From: Sandaracinus amylolyticus
GTDB lineage: Bacteria > Myxococcota_A > Polyangia > Polyangiales > Sandaracinaceae
DNA: 64,000 bases
Direction: 5' to 3'
Assembly: GCF_000737325.1 (NCBI RefSeq)
Contig: NZ_CP011125.1
Span: forward strand, 2,976,001-3,040,000
The position numbers were made by a program, and so were the translations under genes. Positions 32,597 through 39,381 of the stretch are shown in pieces (position 1 is the first letter of the stretch; each line of letters opens with the position of its first letter). The notes beneath the pieces are model-generated. The model was not told the DNA's origin. It was given only the letters and a program-made list of their open reading frames with translations, and did not search any database.

Positions 32597-32989
32597 ATGT
32601 CCCGCGTCGGAATCGTGCTCGCGCTCATCGGGGCGTTCTCGTGCGCCGCGTGTGACTCGGAGGCGGAGAACGCGTTCGAGCGTCGCATGGACGAGCGGCG
32701 CGCGCGGCTCCAGCAGCGCTACGAGGCGCGCGAGCAGCAGGTCGCCGAGGACAGCGAGGTGCAGATCGGCGAGATCGATCAGCGCATCGAGCAGCTCCGG
32801 GCGCGGCGCGAGGCCGAGCTCGAAGAAGAGCTCGCGCGCGAGCGCGTCCGCATGGAGGACACGATCGAGCGCCGTCGCGATCAGCGGCTCGAGGCGCTCT
32901 CGCAGGAGCGCGATCAGCGCCTCGATCAGCTGACCGAGGATCGCCAGCGCGGCGAGGATCGCATCGAGGAGGGACTCTCGCCCGAGTGA
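32597..32989 (+). CDS. coiled-coil lipoprotein
   Basis: 130 residues. Signal peptide with Cys near residues 18-22 (SCAAC; the exact lipidated Cys is unclear), then an almost continuous charged coiled coil (about 25-125) of Glu/Arg/Gln heptads, such as RRMDERRARLQQRYEAREQQ. Probably an envelope tether or scaffold. GGAGGTC about 8 nt before the ATG supports this start over the upstream ATG at 32561. It stands alone. Function unknown. Confidence 0.72.
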   Translation: MSRVGIVLALIGAFSCAACDSEAENAFERRMDERRARLQQRYEAREQQVAEDSEVQIGEIDQRIEQLRARREAELEEELARERVRMEDTIERRRDQRLEALSQERDQRLDQLTEDRQRGEDRIEEGLSPE

Positions 32990-33091
32990 GCAGGCCTCCC
33001 GGCGCAACCGAGCGGGTCCGTGACGAACCCGTGCGCCGCTCGTCACCGGCGTGATGCGCGTGCGCCGCGCGACGCGCGGAGAGTGCAGCGC

Positions 33092-34705
33092 GTGACGCTG
33101 ATCCTGCACCTCTCGGATCTCCACCTGCTCGGCGAGCCGCGCGAGCAGGACGCGATCCTCGCATCGTTGATCACAGCGCTCGAGAAGGAGCGCGCGCGTC
33201 GTGGCCGCCGCGTCGATCTGATCGCGATCACCGGTGACGTGTTCGACAGCGCGACGATCGATCCGCGCGTCGCGGTGCGCGAGCTCGAGGCGCTCCACAA
33301 GTGCATCACGCGCGCGCTGGGCGACGACGTGCCGACGATCGTCGTGCCCGGCAACCACGATCGCCGGCGCATCGGGCTCTTCGGGCCGCACGACGAGTCG
33401 CTCTTCCGCGCGGTCCGCGAGGCGCTCGGCGCGCGCATGTTGATCCACGGCTGCGACACGCCGTTCCTCGCGAAGGTGGTCCCGCCCGCGTTCCACGCGC
33501 AGCCCCTCTGGGCGATCGCGTACGACTCGACGTACCTCCCGCACGGCTGGCTCAGCGCCGGCGGCGTGGTGCGCCACGAGGATCTGCTGCACGCGGCCGC
33601 GCAGATCGGAGACGCCGAGCCCGACTGGCCGCTGCTCTTCTTGTTGCACCACCACCTCGTGCCGACGCCGCTCACCGACGTCGGCCCGATCGAGACACAC
33701 CGCATGCACCCCGCGCTGTGCTGGATGCTTCATCGCGTGCTGCCGGTGCTCGTCGCGCATGCCGATCGCGAGGAGCTCACGATGACCGCGCTCGGCGCGG
33801 GCACCGCGCTCTCGACGCTGCACGATCTGCGACGCGCCGTGCTCGTGCTGCACGGGCACAAGCACTACGCGACCGCACGCAAGCTCGACGCGACCGAGGC
33901 GCGGCAGGGCGACGTGCTGCTCGTGTCGGCAGGGAGCGCGGGGACCGCGCAGCGCTGGAGCCCGACCTCGCCGCGCGACACGGCGCGCCTGTGGCCGTCG
34001 TTCAACGTGATCGAGCTCGAAGGCGACGCGATCACGATCGAGGCGGTGTCGTTCGGGTGGAAGGGACGCTCGGCGGGCGAGACCGCGTATCGCCCATTGG
34101 TCTGGGCGTCGCGCGAGGGCGCGAAGTGGCGCCTCCACCCGATCGAAGGCGCGGAGCCGCACAGCGGGCCGAAGCTGATCGCGAACGAGTCGCGGGTGCG
34201 CCTGATGAACGCGCGACGCTTCGGCGCGCGGCGCTGGGACTACGAGTGCGAGCGCCGCGTCGAGCCGAACGGGCGGGGCCCGCGGCGCTACGTCGAGACC
34301 ATCGAAGGCGCGCGCGGTGCGCTCCTCGAGCCGCTCGATCGCGCGGCGCCGGTGCGCGCGACGCCGGCGCAGCTCGAGCTCGGGCTCGGCGCGCTGACGA
34401 GGTACCGCGTCGACGGCGGCGTGTGTCGGAGCCTCGACGAGGCCACGCGCGTGCGCGGCGCCGCGAGCTCGCCCTTCGAGTGGATCGGCCTGATGAACCG
34501 CTATCGCGCGCGACGATCGCGGCTGGTGCTCGAGGGCCTCGGCGCCCATGCGAACAGCGCGTTCGCGAGCACGACCGATCTCGCGACCGGACAAGAGACG
34601 CCGCTGCGTTGTCACCGCGACGTCGGCGGCGATCGTGTGGTGCTCGAGCTCGACGACTGCCCCGCGCGCACGCTGCTGCGCGTGTACTGGCCGCTCGAGG
34701 CGTGA
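33092..34705 (+). CDS. calcineurin-like metallophosphoesterase with large C-terminal extension
   Basis: 537 residues from a GTG at 33092 (ggagag 8 nt upstream; a GTG at 33083 is also possible). Dinuclear-metal phosphoesterase motifs, in order: HLSDLHLLG, GDVFDSA, GNHDRRR, LLHHHLV and HGHKHYA, all complete. The catalytic domain ends near residue 300; the remaining about 235 residues are of unknown type. No signal peptide. It is 96 bp upstream of btaA on the same strand. In other bacteria a metallophosphoesterase-type phospholipase C (PlcP) frees diacylglycerol from phospholipids for BtaA, so a role as a PlcP analogue is possible, but PlcP is about half this length. Confidence 0.85.
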   Translation: MTLILHLSDLHLLGEPREQDAILASLITALEKERARRGRRVDLIAITGDVFDSATIDPRVAVRELEALHKCITRALGDDVPTIVVPGNHDRRRIGLFGPHDESLFRAVREALGARMLIHGCDTPFLAKVVPPAFHAQPLWAIAYDSTYLPHGWLSAGGVVRHEDLLHAAAQIGDAEPDWPLLFLLHHHLVPTPLTDVGPIETHRMHPALCWMLHRVLPVLVAHADREELTMTALGAGTALSTLHDLRRAVLVLHGHKHYATARKLDATEARQGDVLLVSAGSAGTAQRWSPTSPRDTARLWPSFNVIELEGDAITIEAVSFGWKGRSAGETAYRPLVWASREGAKWRLHPIEGAEPHSGPKLIANESRVRLMNARRFGARRWDYECERRVEPNGRGPRRYVETIEGARGALLEPLDRAAPVRATPAQLELGLGALTRYRVDGGVCRSLDEATRVRGAASSPFEWIGLMNRYRARRSRLVLEGLGAHANSAFASTTDLATGQETPLRCHRDVGGDRVVLELDDCPARTLLRVYWPLEA

Positions 34706-34719
34706 TCCTCACGCACGCT

Positions 34720-34756
34720 CCATTCGCGATTCACCTCCGCGCCATCCGCGATTCAC
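34720..34756 (+). promoter_or_regulatory. 15-bp direct repeat, 22-bp period, upstream of btaA
   Basis: ccattcgcgattcac (34720-34734) and ccatccgcgattcac (34742-34756) differ at one base and are two helical turns apart, 46-82 nt before the btaA ATG. That geometry suits a tandem-binding activator. Whether it is a Pho-type box cannot be decided by eye; the bases do not match the enteric consensus closely. Confidence 0.45.
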
Positions 34757-34801
34757 GCGCGGGCGATAGCTCTTCGAAGTCCAGGAGAGAGGAGAGCCCG
34801 C

Positions 34802-35932
34802 ATGCAGCTCCGCGACGTCGCGTTCGAGCACACGTTCCAGCGCCTGTTCGTCTACAACATCCTCTTCGAGGACGCGGAGGTCGACGAGACGCACCTCGGG
34901 GTCGACGAGCGCTCGCGCGTGCTCTCGATCACCGGCGCGGGGTGCGGCGTCGCGGGGATGTTGAGCCGCGATCCGCGCTCGATCGACGCGGTCGACATCA
35001 ACCCGCACCACCTCGCGCTCACCGCGCTGAAGTGCACCGCCGCGAAGTCGATGCGCTCGTACTCGCGCTTCTACGATCTCTGCGGGCGCGGCTGGCAGCC
35101 CGATCCGGAGCGCACGATCGCGACGCTCGCGCGCGCGATGCCTTCGTGGATGCAGCGCTACTGGTCGCGCCACCACGGGCGCTTCGAGCGCAGCGTGTAC
35201 CGCGAGGGGCTCACCGCCGTGATGCTCGGCGCGTTCCGCCGCTTCACCGGGCTCGACGCGGAGTGGCTGCGCTGGGCGATGCGCCTCTCGCCCGACGCGC
35301 GCGTCGCCGCGGTGGACGAGCACATCGCCCCGGTGCTGCAGAGCCCGCTCGCGCGCGCGTACTTCGCGTCGCCCGCGCAGCTCGTCGCGCTGGGCATCAA
35401 CTTCTCGCAGCGCGACCGCATCCTCGCGACCGAGGACCAGCCCGATCTCGCGGCGTTCGTGCTCGATCACCTGCGGCGGCTCGCGCGCACCGACGTCGCG
35501 ACGAACTGGTTCGTCTGGTGGGCGATCGCGGGGCACTTCGATCACGAGCGCACGACCGACGCGGTGCCTCCGTACCTTCGTCCGGATCGTCACGCACGCT
35601 CGATCGAGGCGAGCACCGACGTGCGCTACCACCGCGCGAACCTCTTCGACGTGCTCGAGCGCTCGCCGCAGCGCGCGTACACGCACTACACGCTGTGCGA
35701 CGCGCCCGACTGGATGCCCGAGCGCACCCAGCGCCGGCTGCTCGACGAGATCCTGCGCACCAGCGAGGACGGCGCGATCGTCCTCTATCGATCCGTCGAG
35801 GACGAGTGCATGGCGACGCGTCTCGGCTATCAGCGCCGCTTCGTCCCGCTGCGTGATCGCACCGAGCACGCGACGCAGGCCGACCGCTCGCGCCAGTACC
35901 GCGCGGTGCGCTTCTACCAGGTGGCGCACTGA
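34802..35932 (+). CDS. btaA: BtaA-like diacylglycerol 3-amino-3-carboxypropyltransferase
   Basis: 376 residues. DUF3419/BtaA family: transfers the 3-amino-3-carboxypropyl group of S-adenosylmethionine to diacylglycerol, giving diacylglycerylhomoserine, the first committed step to the betaine lipid DGTS. Visible: the SAM-binding VLSITGAGCGVAGML (40-54) with VDINPHHL, FYDLCGRGW, and a C-terminal TLCDAPDWMPERTQRRLLDE block. AGGAGAGAGGAG upstream of the ATG. btaB overlaps its stop (TGATG). Family assignment is from remembered motifs and the neighbouring methyltransferase, which fit together well. Confidence 0.87.
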   Translation: MQLRDVAFEHTFQRLFVYNILFEDAEVDETHLGVDERSRVLSITGAGCGVAGMLSRDPRSIDAVDINPHHLALTALKCTAAKSMRSYSRFYDLCGRGWQPDPERTIATLARAMPSWMQRYWSRHHGRFERSVYREGLTAVMLGAFRRFTGLDAEWLRWAMRLSPDARVAAVDEHIAPVLQSPLARAYFASPAQLVALGINFSQRDRILATEDQPDLAAFVLDHLRRLARTDVATNWFVWWAIAGHFDHERTTDAVPPYLRPDRHARSIEASTDVRYHRANLFDVLERSPQRAYTHYTLCDAPDWMPERTQRRLLDEILRTSEDGAIVLYRSVEDECMATRLGYQRRFVPLRDRTEHATQADRSRQYRAVRFYQVAH

Positions 35933-36555
35933 TGGAGATCGTCTCGCCGGTCTCGCGCGACGAGCACAAGCGCTTCCTCGACGCGTACTACGGCTGGGCG
36001 CGCGACGTGTACGACGTCACGCGCCGCTACTACCTGCTCGGTCGCGACGTCGTGACCGCGCAGCTGCTGCGCGAGCCGTGGAACCGGCTCGTCGAGATCG
36101 GGCCGGGAACGGGACGCAACCTGCGCAAGCTCCACGCGGAGCGCCCGGTCGCGCTCTACGGCGGGATCGAGGCCTCGAGCGCGATGCTCGAGCGCGCACG
36201 CGCGCGATGCCCGTGGGCGCTCCTCGAGGAGGGCTTCGCCGAGGACGCGGACTACCGCGAGCTGCTCGGCGCGCCGCCCGATCGCGTGCTCGTCTCGTAC
36301 ACGCTCTCGATGGTCCAGGACGTCGAGCGCGCGATCGAGAACGCGCGCGAGATGGTGTCGCCGCGCGGCGAGATCGTGGTCGTCGACTTCGGCGATCTGC
36401 GCGGTCTGCGCGGCCCGCTCGCGCCGGCGCTGCGCGCGTGGCTCGACGCGTTCCACGTGACGCCGCTGCCGCAGGGCGTGCTCGAGCGGCACGCGCGCAC
36501 CATCGAGGACGGTCCGCTCGGCTACTACCGCATCGCGCGGATCCCGCCGCGCTGA
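35932..36555 (+). CDS. btaB: BtaB-like SAM-dependent N-methyltransferase
   Basis: 207 residues. Class I methyltransferase: SAM site LVEIGPGTGRNLRKLH (53-68), acidic loop GIEASSAML, and the VSYTLSMVQD motif IV region. BtaB-type enzymes methylate diacylglycerylhomoserine three times to form DGTS. Its ATG shares one base with the btaA stop, which indicates translational coupling and argues for this role over other small-molecule methyltransferases. An inner-face membrane association is expected, but no helix is visible. Confidence 0.85.
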   Translation: MEIVSPVSRDEHKRFLDAYYGWARDVYDVTRRYYLLGRDVVTAQLLREPWNRLVEIGPGTGRNLRKLHAERPVALYGGIEASSAMLERARARCPWALLEEGFAEDADYRELLGAPPDRVLVSYTLSMVQDVERAIENAREMVSPRGEIVVVDFGDLRGLRGPLAPALRAWLDAFHVTPLPQGVLERHARTIEDGPLGYYRIARIPPR

Positions 36556-36564
36556 GCTCGACGT

Positions 36565-37008
36565 TCACGCCCGACCGGTCGCGCCCGCCCGCTCCTCCGC
36601 GGCGCGGGCCGATCGCGCGCGGCGCGCGAGCTTCGCGTCGTACTTGTCGCGTGCCTCCTCGACGGCATCGCGGTTCTGCCGCGCCCACGCCGCGAGCGCA
36701 GTGATCGGCGCGAGCAGCGTGCGGCCGAGCTCGGTGAGCTCGTACTCGACGCGCGGCGGGATCGTCGGGTACGCGGTGCGCGTCACGAGCCCGTCGCGCT
36801 CGAGCGCCTTCAGCGTGAGCGTCAGCATGCGCTGCGAGATCCCGTCGATGGATCGCTTCAGCTCGTTGAAGCGCATGCGCTCGATCCCGAGCATCGCGAC
36901 GACGAGCACGCTCCACTTGTCGCCGATGCGATCGAGCACGTCGCGCATGGCGGGGCACGCCTCGCTCGAGAACGGCTCGTGCGACGGCGGTTTGTGCCTC
37001 GGTGACAT
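36565..37008 (-). CDS. HxlR family transcriptional regulator
   Basis: 147 residues. Winged-helix HTH of HxlR type (about 18-105): a Cys18 in SSEACPAMRDVLDRIGDKW at the conserved N-terminal position, the RMRFNELKRSIDGISQRMLT recognition region, and the YELTELGRTL wing. A Cys at this site can make HxlR proteins respond to thiol stress or electrophiles. AAGGAGG sits at correct spacing before the ATG. It is divergent from a glutathione transferase gene, which is a plausible target and fits detoxification control. Confidence 0.92.
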   Translation of the reverse strand: MSPRHKPPSHEPFSSEACPAMRDVLDRIGDKWSVLVVAMLGIERMRFNELKRSIDGISQRMLTLTLKALERDGLVTRTAYPTIPPRVEYELTELGRTLLAPITALAAWARQNRDAVEEARDKYDAKLARRARSARAAEERAGATGRA

Positions 37009-37037
37009 GAATGTGCCTCCTTGCGGGCCGATCCGAC

Positions 37038-37082
37038 GGTCACGAGAGTAGCGTCGGTCACAAACGGGAACCACCCGTGACC
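37038..37082. promoter_or_regulatory. GGTCAC half-sites between hxlR-type gene and GST gene
   Basis: ggtcac occurs at 37038-37043 and 37056-37061 in the same direction and inverted as gtgacc at 37077-37082, inside the 89-bp divergent promoter region. HxlR regulators bind repeats of this kind with GTNNAC-like cores; a role as its operator is inference. Confidence 0.45.
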
Positions 37083-37097
37083 AGGAGGACCGACACG

Positions 37098-37706
37098 ATG
37101 ATCAAGCTCTACTACGCGCCCGGTGCCTGCTCGCTCTCGCCACACGTCGCGCTGCGCGAAGCGGGCCTCCCGTTCGAGCTCGTGCGCGTCGACTTCATGC
37201 GCGGCAAGCGCCTCGAGACCGGCGGCGAATTCGTCGACGTGAGCCCGAAGGGCTACGTGCCCGCGGTGGTGCTCGACGACGGACAGCTGCTCACCGAGGG
37301 CGTCGCGATCGTGCAGTACATCGCGGACCAGAAGCCCGAGCTCGGCCTCGCGCCGCCGCCGGGCACGCTGGAGCGCGTGCGCCTGCAGGAGTGGCTCGTC
37401 TTCATCGCGACCGAGCTGCACAAAGGGCTCTCACCGCTCTTCATGCCGCAAGCGTCGGACGAGCTGAAGCAGGCGGTGAAGGCGAAGGTGCGATCGCGTC
37501 TCGAGCTCGTCGCGCGGAGCCTCGGCTCGAAGCCGTACCTCATGGGCGATCGCTTCACGATCGCCGACGGCTATCTCCTCTACGCGCTGCGCGCGTTCCA
37601 GCGCTTCGACAGCGGTGCGTTGCCCGGCGAGCTGCCCGCGTACCTCGAGCGTGTGTCGTCGCGCCCGGCGGTGAAGGCGGCGCTCGAGGCCGAAGGGCTC
37701 GCCTGA
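37098..37706 (+). CDS. glutathione S-transferase, beta class
   Basis: 202 residues. Thioredoxin-like N-terminal domain (1-77) with the beta-class active site YYAPGACSLSPH (Cys10), the cis-Pro strand KGYVPAVVLDDG and the glutathione-binding LTEGVAIVQYI; an all-helical C-terminal domain (85-200) with the FTIADGYLLYALR helix containing the N-capping motif. Conjugates glutathione to electrophiles in the cytoplasm. AGGAGG precedes the ATG. It is divergent from an HxlR regulator. The IS110 element lies downstream, starting very near its stop. Confidence 0.94.
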   Translation: MIKLYYAPGACSLSPHVALREAGLPFELVRVDFMRGKRLETGGEFVDVSPKGYVPAVVLDDGQLLTEGVAIVQYIADQKPELGLAPPPGTLERVRLQEWLVFIATELHKGLSPLFMPQASDELKQAVKAKVRSRLELVARSLGSKPYLMGDRFTIADGYLLYALRAFQRFDSGALPGELPAYLERVSSRPAVKAALEAEGLA

Positions 37707-37903
37707 GCGCGGGCTCGCTTGTATCTACCCCAGTCATCGGCGGCTGGTTCGTGATAGCAGGCCGCCACGCGGTTTCGGGAGAGGGTCGCCGGGCATCGCT
37801 TGGGGCAACGTCCCCGTGAGTGAGATTGGCGCCCTCGACCGAGTTTCTTTGCTCGAACGGTATCCAGAGGCGTGGCTCGTCCACCGTCCTCGCATGGACA
37901 AGC
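37707..37903 (+). ncRNA. candidate IS110 bridge-RNA region
   Basis: IS110 elements encode a guide (bridge) RNA in the non-coding end upstream of the recombinase. This stretch has two local stems: ggcggc/gccgcc (37739-37744 and 37761-37766, 16-nt loop) and gggg/cccc (37802-37805 and 37812-37815, 6-nt loop), where recognition loops would sit. The RNA assignment rests on position and family knowledge; its target cannot be read here. Confidence 0.35.
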
Positions 37904-39097
37904 ATGGGCACGAAGCTCGGCTCCGAGGCTCCCGGGCACGCGATCGACATCGGTTCGGAGAAGCACGTCGTCGCCATCGTGGACGAGACGGGCAAGCCGC
38001 TGCGCAAGCCAATACCGTTCTCCGAGGACGCATCGGGCTACGAGCGACTGCGCTCGATGCTCGGTGAGGCGGCAGACGCATTCGTCGCGATGGAGGCGAC
38101 CGGGCACTACTGGCAGAACCTGTTCGCGTTCCTCCACGCGGCGGGCTTCCAGATCGCGCTGCTGAACCCGACGCGCACGTCGCGGTTCGCGGCTGAGGAC
38201 CTGCGCCGCGCGAAGACGGACGCGCTGGATGCGCTCGGCATCGCGCGGTTCGCGCAGCAGAAGCGGCCTGCCGCGACGCCGATGCCCGATGCAGCGACGC
38301 TCGAGCTGCGGGAGCTGATGCGTCTGCGCGACCGGCTGGTGCAGGACCTCGGTGACCGCGCGCGACAGGTCCATCGCGCGCTGGACCTGAGCTTCCCGGA
38401 GCTCACCGACCACGTGCGCGACGTGGCATCGGCCAAGGCCACTACGCTGCTCGTCGTGTGCCCGACCGCCGAGAAGTTCCGAGCAGCTGACCCGAAGGTC
38501 CTGGCCGAGCTGAAGTACGACGGGCGTCACGTCATCGGTCTCGAGCTCGCAAAGGCGCTCTGCGAGGCCGCCAAGACCAGCGTGGGCCGGCACCAGGGCA
38601 CGCCCTACGAGCTGCAGATCCGCTACGCGTGCGAGGACATCGCGACGCTCCGGGCGCGCATCAAGAAGCTCGACGAAGACATCAGCCAGAGCCTGGATCG
38701 GCATGAGGTCGGCAAGCTGCTGACGACCATCGACGGCATCGGAGACAACACTGCGGCGCGCATGATCGCCTCGATCGACTTCGACGGCTTCAAGAGCGCC
38801 GCCGCGCTCGCGGCGTACGTCGGCGTCGCTCCGCTCGTGAACCACTCGGGCAAACGCCAGCCGCTGCGAGGCCACGCCTGCGCGATGGGCGACGCCGACC
38901 TGCGCGCCAAGCTCTGGATGCCGACGCTGCGGGCCGTGACCCACAACCCGTGGCTCAAGGCGTTCTACCAGCGCCTCGTGGCCGCCGGAAAGCCGAAGAA
39001 GCTCGCGATCATCGCTTCGATGCGCAAGCTTCTCGGCGCCATGATCAGCGTGGCGCGCACGCGCACGCCCTTCGTGCCGAAGCTCGCGGCGGCCTGA
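37904..39097 (+). CDS. IS110-family transposase (DEDD recombinase)
   Basis: 397 residues from the ATG at 37904 (a GTG at 37820 would add 28 residues with no similarity to the family start). RuvC-like DEDD domain: Asp15 (AIDIGSEKH), Glu64 (AMEATGHYW), Asp106 and Asp109 (KTDALDA). Helical middle (about 140-260). The C-terminal Transposase_20 domain has TIDGIGDNTAARMIASI and the GVAPLVNHSGK segment with the catalytic Ser candidate. All four acidic residues and the Ser are present, so it may be active. No frameshift seen. Confidence 0.93.
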   Translation: MGTKLGSEAPGHAIDIGSEKHVVAIVDETGKPLRKPIPFSEDASGYERLRSMLGEAADAFVAMEATGHYWQNLFAFLHAAGFQIALLNPTRTSRFAAEDLRRAKTDALDALGIARFAQQKRPAATPMPDAATLELRELMRLRDRLVQDLGDRARQVHRALDLSFPELTDHVRDVASAKATTLLVVCPTAEKFRAADPKVLAELKYDGRHVIGLELAKALCEAAKTSVGRHQGTPYELQIRYACEDIATLRARIKKLDEDISQSLDRHEVGKLLTTIDGIGDNTAARMIASIDFDGFKSAAALAAYVGVAPLVNHSGKRQPLRGHACAMGDADLRAKLWMPTLRAVTHNPWLKAFYQRLVAAGKPKKLAIIASMRKLLGAMISVARTRTPFVPKLAAA

Positions 39098-39133: not shown

Positions 39134-39381
39134 TCACTCCGCGATCACCTCGAGCGCGATCTCGCGCGCGACGTCCTCGAGCCACTCGTCGAGCTCGGCC
39201 TCGCGATCGGTGGTGGTCACGAGCACCACCACGCCGGTGCGATCGCCGTGCGCGCTCGCGAGCCCGTCGTAGCCCGCGAGGATCCCGCGCAGTCGCACGA
39301 TGTCCGACGGTTGCATACGCAACCGTCGGACGACGAGCCCCTCGCCGAGCGGGACGTGCGACGCGCCGTCGGTCGTGTCGC

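Follow-up and report, generated by a model that had tools for sequence, protein, structure and literature searches.

A two-domain metallophosphoesterase gene beside betaine-lipid genes in Sandaracinus amylolyticus: a candidate phosphate-response locus

Results

We analysed a stretch of 64,000 nucleotides from Sandaracinus amylolyticus (contig NZ_CP011125.1, positions 2,976,001 to 3,040,000; hereafter the window), and compared it with related genomes. Our subject is three consecutive genes on the forward strand. The first (33092..34705) encodes a calcineurin-like metallophosphoesterase (MPE) of 537 aa with two domains, a catalytic domain at residues 1 to about 322 and a beta-rich domain at about 324-537. 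It is followed by btaA (34802..35932, 376 aa; PF11899/DUF3419), a putative S-adenosylmethionine (SAM):diacylglycerol 3-amino-3-carboxypropyltransferase, and by btaB (35932..36555, 207 aa), a predicted SAM-dependent N-methyltransferase, both assigned by profile match and homology. An initial sequence-only reading, made without database searches, had described this layout correctly: the MPE frame is complete and stops at 34705, leaving 96 bp to the btaA ATG, and btaA and btaB overlap by a single base, 35932, which closes the btaA stop codon and opens the btaB ATG. In-frame alternatives to the GTG start of the MPE exist at 33083 and 33020, the latter within a conserved upstream element, but we favour 33092 because homologues begin there and GGAGAG lies just upstream. 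The window genome is referred to as G000; its Sandaracinaceae relatives include the sister genome G002 (locus L021), G001 (L022/L094), G004 and G008 (L024/L098).

We called BtaA by a full-length DUF3419/PF11899 match together with similarity to rhizobial BtaA, and BtaB by similarity to rhizobial BtaB together with a gene adjoining btaA, and the window proteins show all of these. The BtaA profile match scores 200 bits over 362 residues, and the protein is 28% identical to Rhizobium leguminosarum BtaA over 390 alignment columns (E 8e-40). Profile search places BtaB among the class I SAM methyltransferases, and it is 35% identical to Sinorhizobium meliloti BtaB (E 8e-32). The gene order is also the same, since in R. 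leguminosarum a DUF3419 gene is followed by a SAM methyltransferase gene with a 4-base overlap. The assignment made in the sequence-only reading is borne out. Proteins of the BtaA family move an aminocarboxypropyl group from SAM to diacylglycerol, and those of the BtaB family methylate the product, in three N-methylations, to diacylglyceryl-trimethylhomoserine (DGTS), a betaine lipid without phosphorus. On homology, the window pair likely makes DGTS. It resembles the pairs of rhizobia and Rhodobacterales in combining a DUF3419 protein with a small SAM methyltransferase, in the same order and with overlapping or adjacent genes, and differs in coming from a Myxococcota lineage, where we know it from sequence.

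BtaA is found at E <= 0.001 in 38 of the 282 genomes of the phylum, eight of which, the window genome included, have it at 50-100% identity. A BtaB relative accompanies this type of BtaA in all 12 Myxococcota genomes inspected (these eight and the Sandaracinaceae G001, G002, G004 and G008). The two genes adjoin each other except in G247, where about 4.7 kb separates them, and in G178 BtaB is only partly called. In plasmid records BtaA gave eight matches, in Rhizobium, Sinorhizobium and Shinella. A divergent second DUF3419 group, whose PF11899 match is mostly split in two, is widespread in the order, being present in 14 of the 56 genomes searched (G012, G013, G015, G020, G037, G038, G040, G043, G045, G047, G049, G050, G052 and G055).

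The metal-binding motifs of calcineurin-type enzymes are invariant in 14 aligned MPE sequences (D9, H11, D49, N88, H89, H186-H188, H256 and H258), while Pfam coverage is restricted to residues 4-189. The AlphaFold2 model of the whole protein has a predicted local distance difference test (pLDDT) score of 88.8, and that of the C-terminal domain by itself scores 92.5. The sequence-only reading was right that an extra C-terminal domain exists, though it comprises 214 aa and not about 235. In the window copy this domain has no Pfam match, and there is no convincing sequence match to it in the PDB. Its fold matches are weak (Z up to 8.5) and scattered over beta-sandwich domains, among them those of oligosaccharyltransferase subunits and M1 aminopeptidases, and we therefore draw no function from them. 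The catalytic domain is closest to a YydB model (9a6c_B, presumably from B. subtilis; Z 26.3), followed by animal purple acid phosphatases (22-23), SMPDL3A (about 22; acid sphingomyelinase and SMPDL3A together span about 19-22), GpdQ and Rv0805 (21-22) and SbcD (19-20). The MPE shares with these enzymes and with Mre11 the catalytic fold and metal-ligand motifs, but is only 10-23% identical to them among the fold matches listed and carries the added C-terminal beta-rich domain. Judged by the model, its fold is about equally near to purple acid phosphatases, SMPDL3A and acid sphingomyelinase, GpdQ and Rv0805, and SbcD, and singles out no substrate. The proposal of a membrane-anchored lipase finds no support in hydropathy, which reveals no membrane helix in the MPE (best 19-residue mean 1.03).

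Strong MPE matches, either of full length or broken up by contig ends, occur in 15 of 56 relatives, and two further genomes have weak matches to the N-terminal part only. Among 84,980 species genomes scanned there were 43 loci, 29 strong (L094-L122; 24 full length) and 14 weak, and the titles of all 29 strong loci are Myxococcota or deltaproteobacterial. A search of plasmid records found no MPE relatives. Taken together, the comparisons point to a Myxococcota-restricted two-domain family of which the window MPE is a member, probably cytoplasmic.

The sequence-only reading had compared the MPE with the phospholipase PlcP and considered it a possible variant. Our reference was a 281-aa protein from an S. 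meliloti record, which we take to be SMc00171; it is annotated as UDP-2,3-diacylglucosamine diphosphatase and has a LuxR-type gene about 2.8 kb away. The MPE is indeed nearly twice as long (1.9-fold), but the comparison gave no resemblance beyond superfamily motifs: E 0.022 over 91 residues, 22 of them identical, and a profile match at residues 3-101 only (probability 93.8). This is the similarity expected between two members of one superfamily rather than full-length homology, and a two-domain protein of 537 aa also differs in architecture from the single-domain PlcP of about 280 aa. We accordingly rejected the MPE as a PlcP. The PlcP query matched in 4 of the 56 relatives, and none of the matches was in G000 or the nine other genomes of its family, although a diverged PlcP could escape this single query.

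A close match to DNA-repair nucleases had been named in the sequence-only reading as an outcome that would count against a lipid role. We find none, since the likeness to SbcD/Mre11 is limited to the first ~100 residues, and against the NCBIfam SbcD model TIGR00619 the MPE scores 33.8 bits (cut-off 77.65) over residues 4-92 only. Matches to anti-phage phosphoesterases are likewise weak, N-terminal and far under their cut-offs, and both candidates were set aside.

The region upstream of MPE genes holds a conserved pattern. Among all 1024 5-mers GTCAC ranked first (18/31 upstreams versus 20/238 in the background, nominal P 5e-10), and it stayed enriched after the close relatives G002, G004, L103 and L104 were removed (14/27, P 1.5e-7); the only words enriched comparably overlap it. 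The ranking of 5-mers and of pitch covered all words, and the background omitted only genes within 700 bases of MPE starts. Where GTCA pairs with itself, the distance is a multiple of 11 bp in all 12 cases; for TCAC this is true of 14 of 18. In relatives the half-site [GT]TCAC lies on the coding strand, mostly 37-95 nt before the MPE start, with most pairs 22 bp apart and pairs 11 bp apart in G008 and G004; the units of G007 lie at 0/11/33 and those of L099 at 0/22/33. The MPE genes with this lattice sit in otherwise unrelated neighbourhoods. The window has the element GTGAC-N17-GTCAC-N6-GATGC at 33020..33057 of the forward strand (G000:C1:3009020-3009057). Tested for the tandem repeats found in closer relatives, it is one mismatch off their common element and has a low matrix score. 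An extended element, written as a pattern from the MPE sites themselves, gave five zero-mismatch sites in eight genomes, four of which are MPE upstreams. Most of the 23 other sites inspected fall in coding sequence; one is intergenic, 5' of a 365-aa gene, and common to G000 and G002.

A Pho box consists of two 11-nt direct repeats with seven conserved bases each (PMC4415409). The MPE lattice is like it in its 7-nt direct repeats, 11-bp pitch and TCAC/TCAT core, and differs in that its outer units mostly have a 22-bp spacing and flank a degenerate middle unit. It shares its half-site and 11-bp pitch with the upstream regions of pst-operon genes in Sandaracinus and the sister genus, which have YYGTCAC-N4-YYGTCAC or a close variant. 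Six of these seven pst upstreams score at least 11.5 of 13 in a unit-based scoring that was adopted after a matrix, and thus after the sites had been seen, and whose background still contained MPE and bta upstreams. Genome-wide, YGTCACN4YYGTCAC occurs 3, 4, 5 and 3 times in G000, G002, G008 and G004 (1, 2, 1 and 1 for the reversed pattern), and the sites include those of the pst operon in all four genomes and the btaA upstream in G008 and G004. A further perfect GTCAC pair common to G004 and G008 (L213 1501-1517, L225 1501-1517) lies beside a gene for a membrane-protein-like product of ~462 aa.

Upstream of btaA the boxes are perfect or near-perfect in G008, G004 and G001 (CCGTCAT-CGGG-CGGTCAC in the last), with unit scores of 12.5-13. 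The G008 box is shared with the MPE, and in G004 the MPE and btaA each have their own. What G000 and G002 have upstream of btaA is no more than five YCAY half-sites repeated every 11 bp, an array that in the window occupies 34709..34756 (forward strand) in the gap between MPE and btaA. It is a candidate degenerate Pho-type operator of btaAB, equally readable as a 22-bp tandem repeat. The pattern has its sole site in G000 here and the same site in G002, with none in the controls, but this is weak evidence: the site itself served to define the pattern, most of which a 22-bp duplication accounts for. The phosphate-stress link proposed from the sequence thus gains from Pho-box-like elements 5' of MPE and btaA in relatives and loses from the degenerate state of those in the window.

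The linkage of MPE and btaAB as an operon-like unit is weak. The btaAB pair lies near the MPE in 4 of 32 loci (the 29 named loci, G002, G007 and the window, some with flanks cut by contig ends), as found by tblastn of the flanks. All four are Sandaracinaceae: the window, G002, G001 and G008. In G008 MPE and btaA are divergent, and in G004 11 kb of the same contig separates them. No MPE gene was found around btaA in the fetched stretches of seven genomes outside Sandaracinaceae, three of which are shortened by contig ends. Of the 15 relatives that carry an MPE, 10 have no strong BtaA (the match in G005 scores in between), and the neighbours of the MPE are otherwise not conserved. In G002 and G001 a divergent ~850-aa gene (L021 10166-12721; L094 3210-5753) lies just upstream of the MPE, which therefore should have its own promoter there.

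This ~850-aa gene is absent from the window, where a ~100-bp gap (32989-33092) separates the MPE from a small lipoprotein-like gene. Downstream, 36565-39097, between btaB and an 83-aa gene at 39134, holds by eye an HxlR-type regulator, a glutathione S-transferase and a transposase-like 397-aa gene. In G002 btaB directly adjoins the homologue of the 83-aa gene, so this block was either inserted in the window or lost in G002. An EAL-domain gene (PF00563, tested on L112) directly follows the MPE in two Sandaracinaceae (L098 7729-8484, L112 7731-8558), with relatives near the MPE in L099 and L035. In G071 (L142 1-1257) a PF04185 phosphoesterase, of a different family but in an equivalent position, ends 188 nt upstream of btaA-btaB.

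Discussion

We think it on balance probable, with modest confidence, that MPE and btaAB belong to the Pho response, each under a promoter of its own, the MPE hydrolysing an internal phosphoester and btaAB making DGTS. Under low phosphate a PhoB-type regulator would bind the GTCAC half-sites on the 11-bp lattice upstream of the MPE, the induced intracellular enzyme would hydrolyse an internal phosphoester and release phosphate, and btaAB, turned on through a similar operator, would replace phospholipid with DGTS. The sequences themselves support the relationship to BtaA and BtaB, the family and distribution of the MPE, the upstream lattice in relatives and the half-site at pst genes. From these we infer the regulator, induction when phosphate is low, the substrate of the MPE, the making of DGTS and the working of the weak elements in the window.

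Several observations weigh against this interpretation. No [GT]TCAC pair is present in L107-L111, L113, L115-L122, L095, L097, L100, L101 or the window, and the element is missing from more distant MPE genes. The P values given above are too small, because the upstreams of related genes are not independent. On a matrix built from six pst boxes, which themselves score 23-28.7, the window reaches at best 2.1 in the btaA gap and 6.45 in the MPE gap, with a chance maximum of 10.9; this matrix is dominated by spacer bases and separates even the btaA boxes of G008 and G004 (11.8 and 11.3) little from that maximum. All seven btaA genes outside Sandaracinaceae have unit scores below 11.5, and phoU upstreams hold at most a single GTCAC. 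In the fetched pst upstreams of G001, G007, G022, G043, G037, G052 and G013 we found no clear 11-bp GTCAC pair, although one lies near a G037 gene. The absence of clear pst boxes in these seven further genomes is the main gap in assigning the lattice to PhoB.

It is possible, if rather unlikely, that the MPE is unrelated to btaAB, for example a nuclease or nucleotide phosphodiesterase, and adjoins it by chance. The weak N-terminal matches to SbcD/Mre11 and to anti-phage phosphoesterases, the YydB model as top fold match and the lack of conserved neighbours are all consistent with this. The half-site and pitch that the MPE lattice has in common with the pst boxes argue against it, as does the lack of a Rad50/SbcC-like partner among the listed neighbours, which were inspected by eye with no scan aimed at one.

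The gene order invites another idea, which we consider unlikely, namely that the MPE does the work of PlcP without being its homologue: as an intracellular phospholipase C it would cleave phospholipids and pass the diacylglycerol on to BtaA. The order plcP-btaA-btaB (type 1 cluster), with predicted phosphate control, is described in Phaeobacter sp. MED193 (PMC4796936). The window likewise has a phosphoesterase gene directly 5' of btaA-btaB, but the enzyme is not a PlcP, has 1.9 times its length and carries a further domain, and the linkage is seen in Sandaracinaceae alone. Further support comes from the adjacency of MPE and btaAB in two Sandaracinaceae genera in differing orientations, the Pho-type elements upstream of the MPE, the acid sphingomyelinase and SMPDL3A fold matches, and the arrangement in G071; the missing PlcP match in G000 and the nine other family members also leaves room for such a source of diacylglycerol. 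On the other side, 28 of 32 MPE loci are not near btaAB, most MPE-bearing genomes lack a strong BtaA, the fold is matched about equally by acid phosphatases, nucleases and cyclic-nucleotide phosphodiesterases, and hydropathy gives no membrane segment. Diacylglycerol can also be obtained from phosphatidate dephosphorylation (PMC4796936). An extension of this idea, which we hold to be slightly less likely still, is that Myxococcota invented the MPE as a second, non-homologous Pho-controlled intracellular phospholipase C, which would supply diacylglycerol for BtaAB in Sandaracinaceae and, in relatives that lack btaAB, for other pathways to lipids free of phosphorus, with a C-terminal beta-rich domain that would recognise the membrane surface or the substrate.

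That the GTCAC pairs are instead the -35 and -10 elements of an extracytoplasmic-function sigma factor promoter is improbable: most have the 22-bp pitch, which with its 17-bp spacer is normal promoter spacing, but the 11-bp pairs of G008 and G004, the mixed spacings of G007 and L099 and the 11-bp pitch at pst speak against it.

Within the interpretation that we favour, of separately promoted Pho-response genes, a Pho-controlled cytoplasmic phosphoesterase unrelated to lipids explains the data no less well than a lipase would. We lean slightly towards a lipid role because the MPE adjoins btaAB in two genera with differing orientations. The MPE is a previously undescribed phosphoesterase, and open-access full-text literature gave no match for a metallophosphoesterase in the Pho regulon of myxobacteria. 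A non-exhaustive search of the same literature revealed no visible description of betaine-lipid synthesis in these bacteria, and the available text of PMC9969633 and PMC11868695 has nothing on betaine lipids made by them. If our interpretation is true, phosphate-saving betaine-lipid synthesis would extend to myxobacteria, and the conserved promoter lattice of a lineage-specific phosphoesterase family would allow its part in phosphate starvation to be tested directly.

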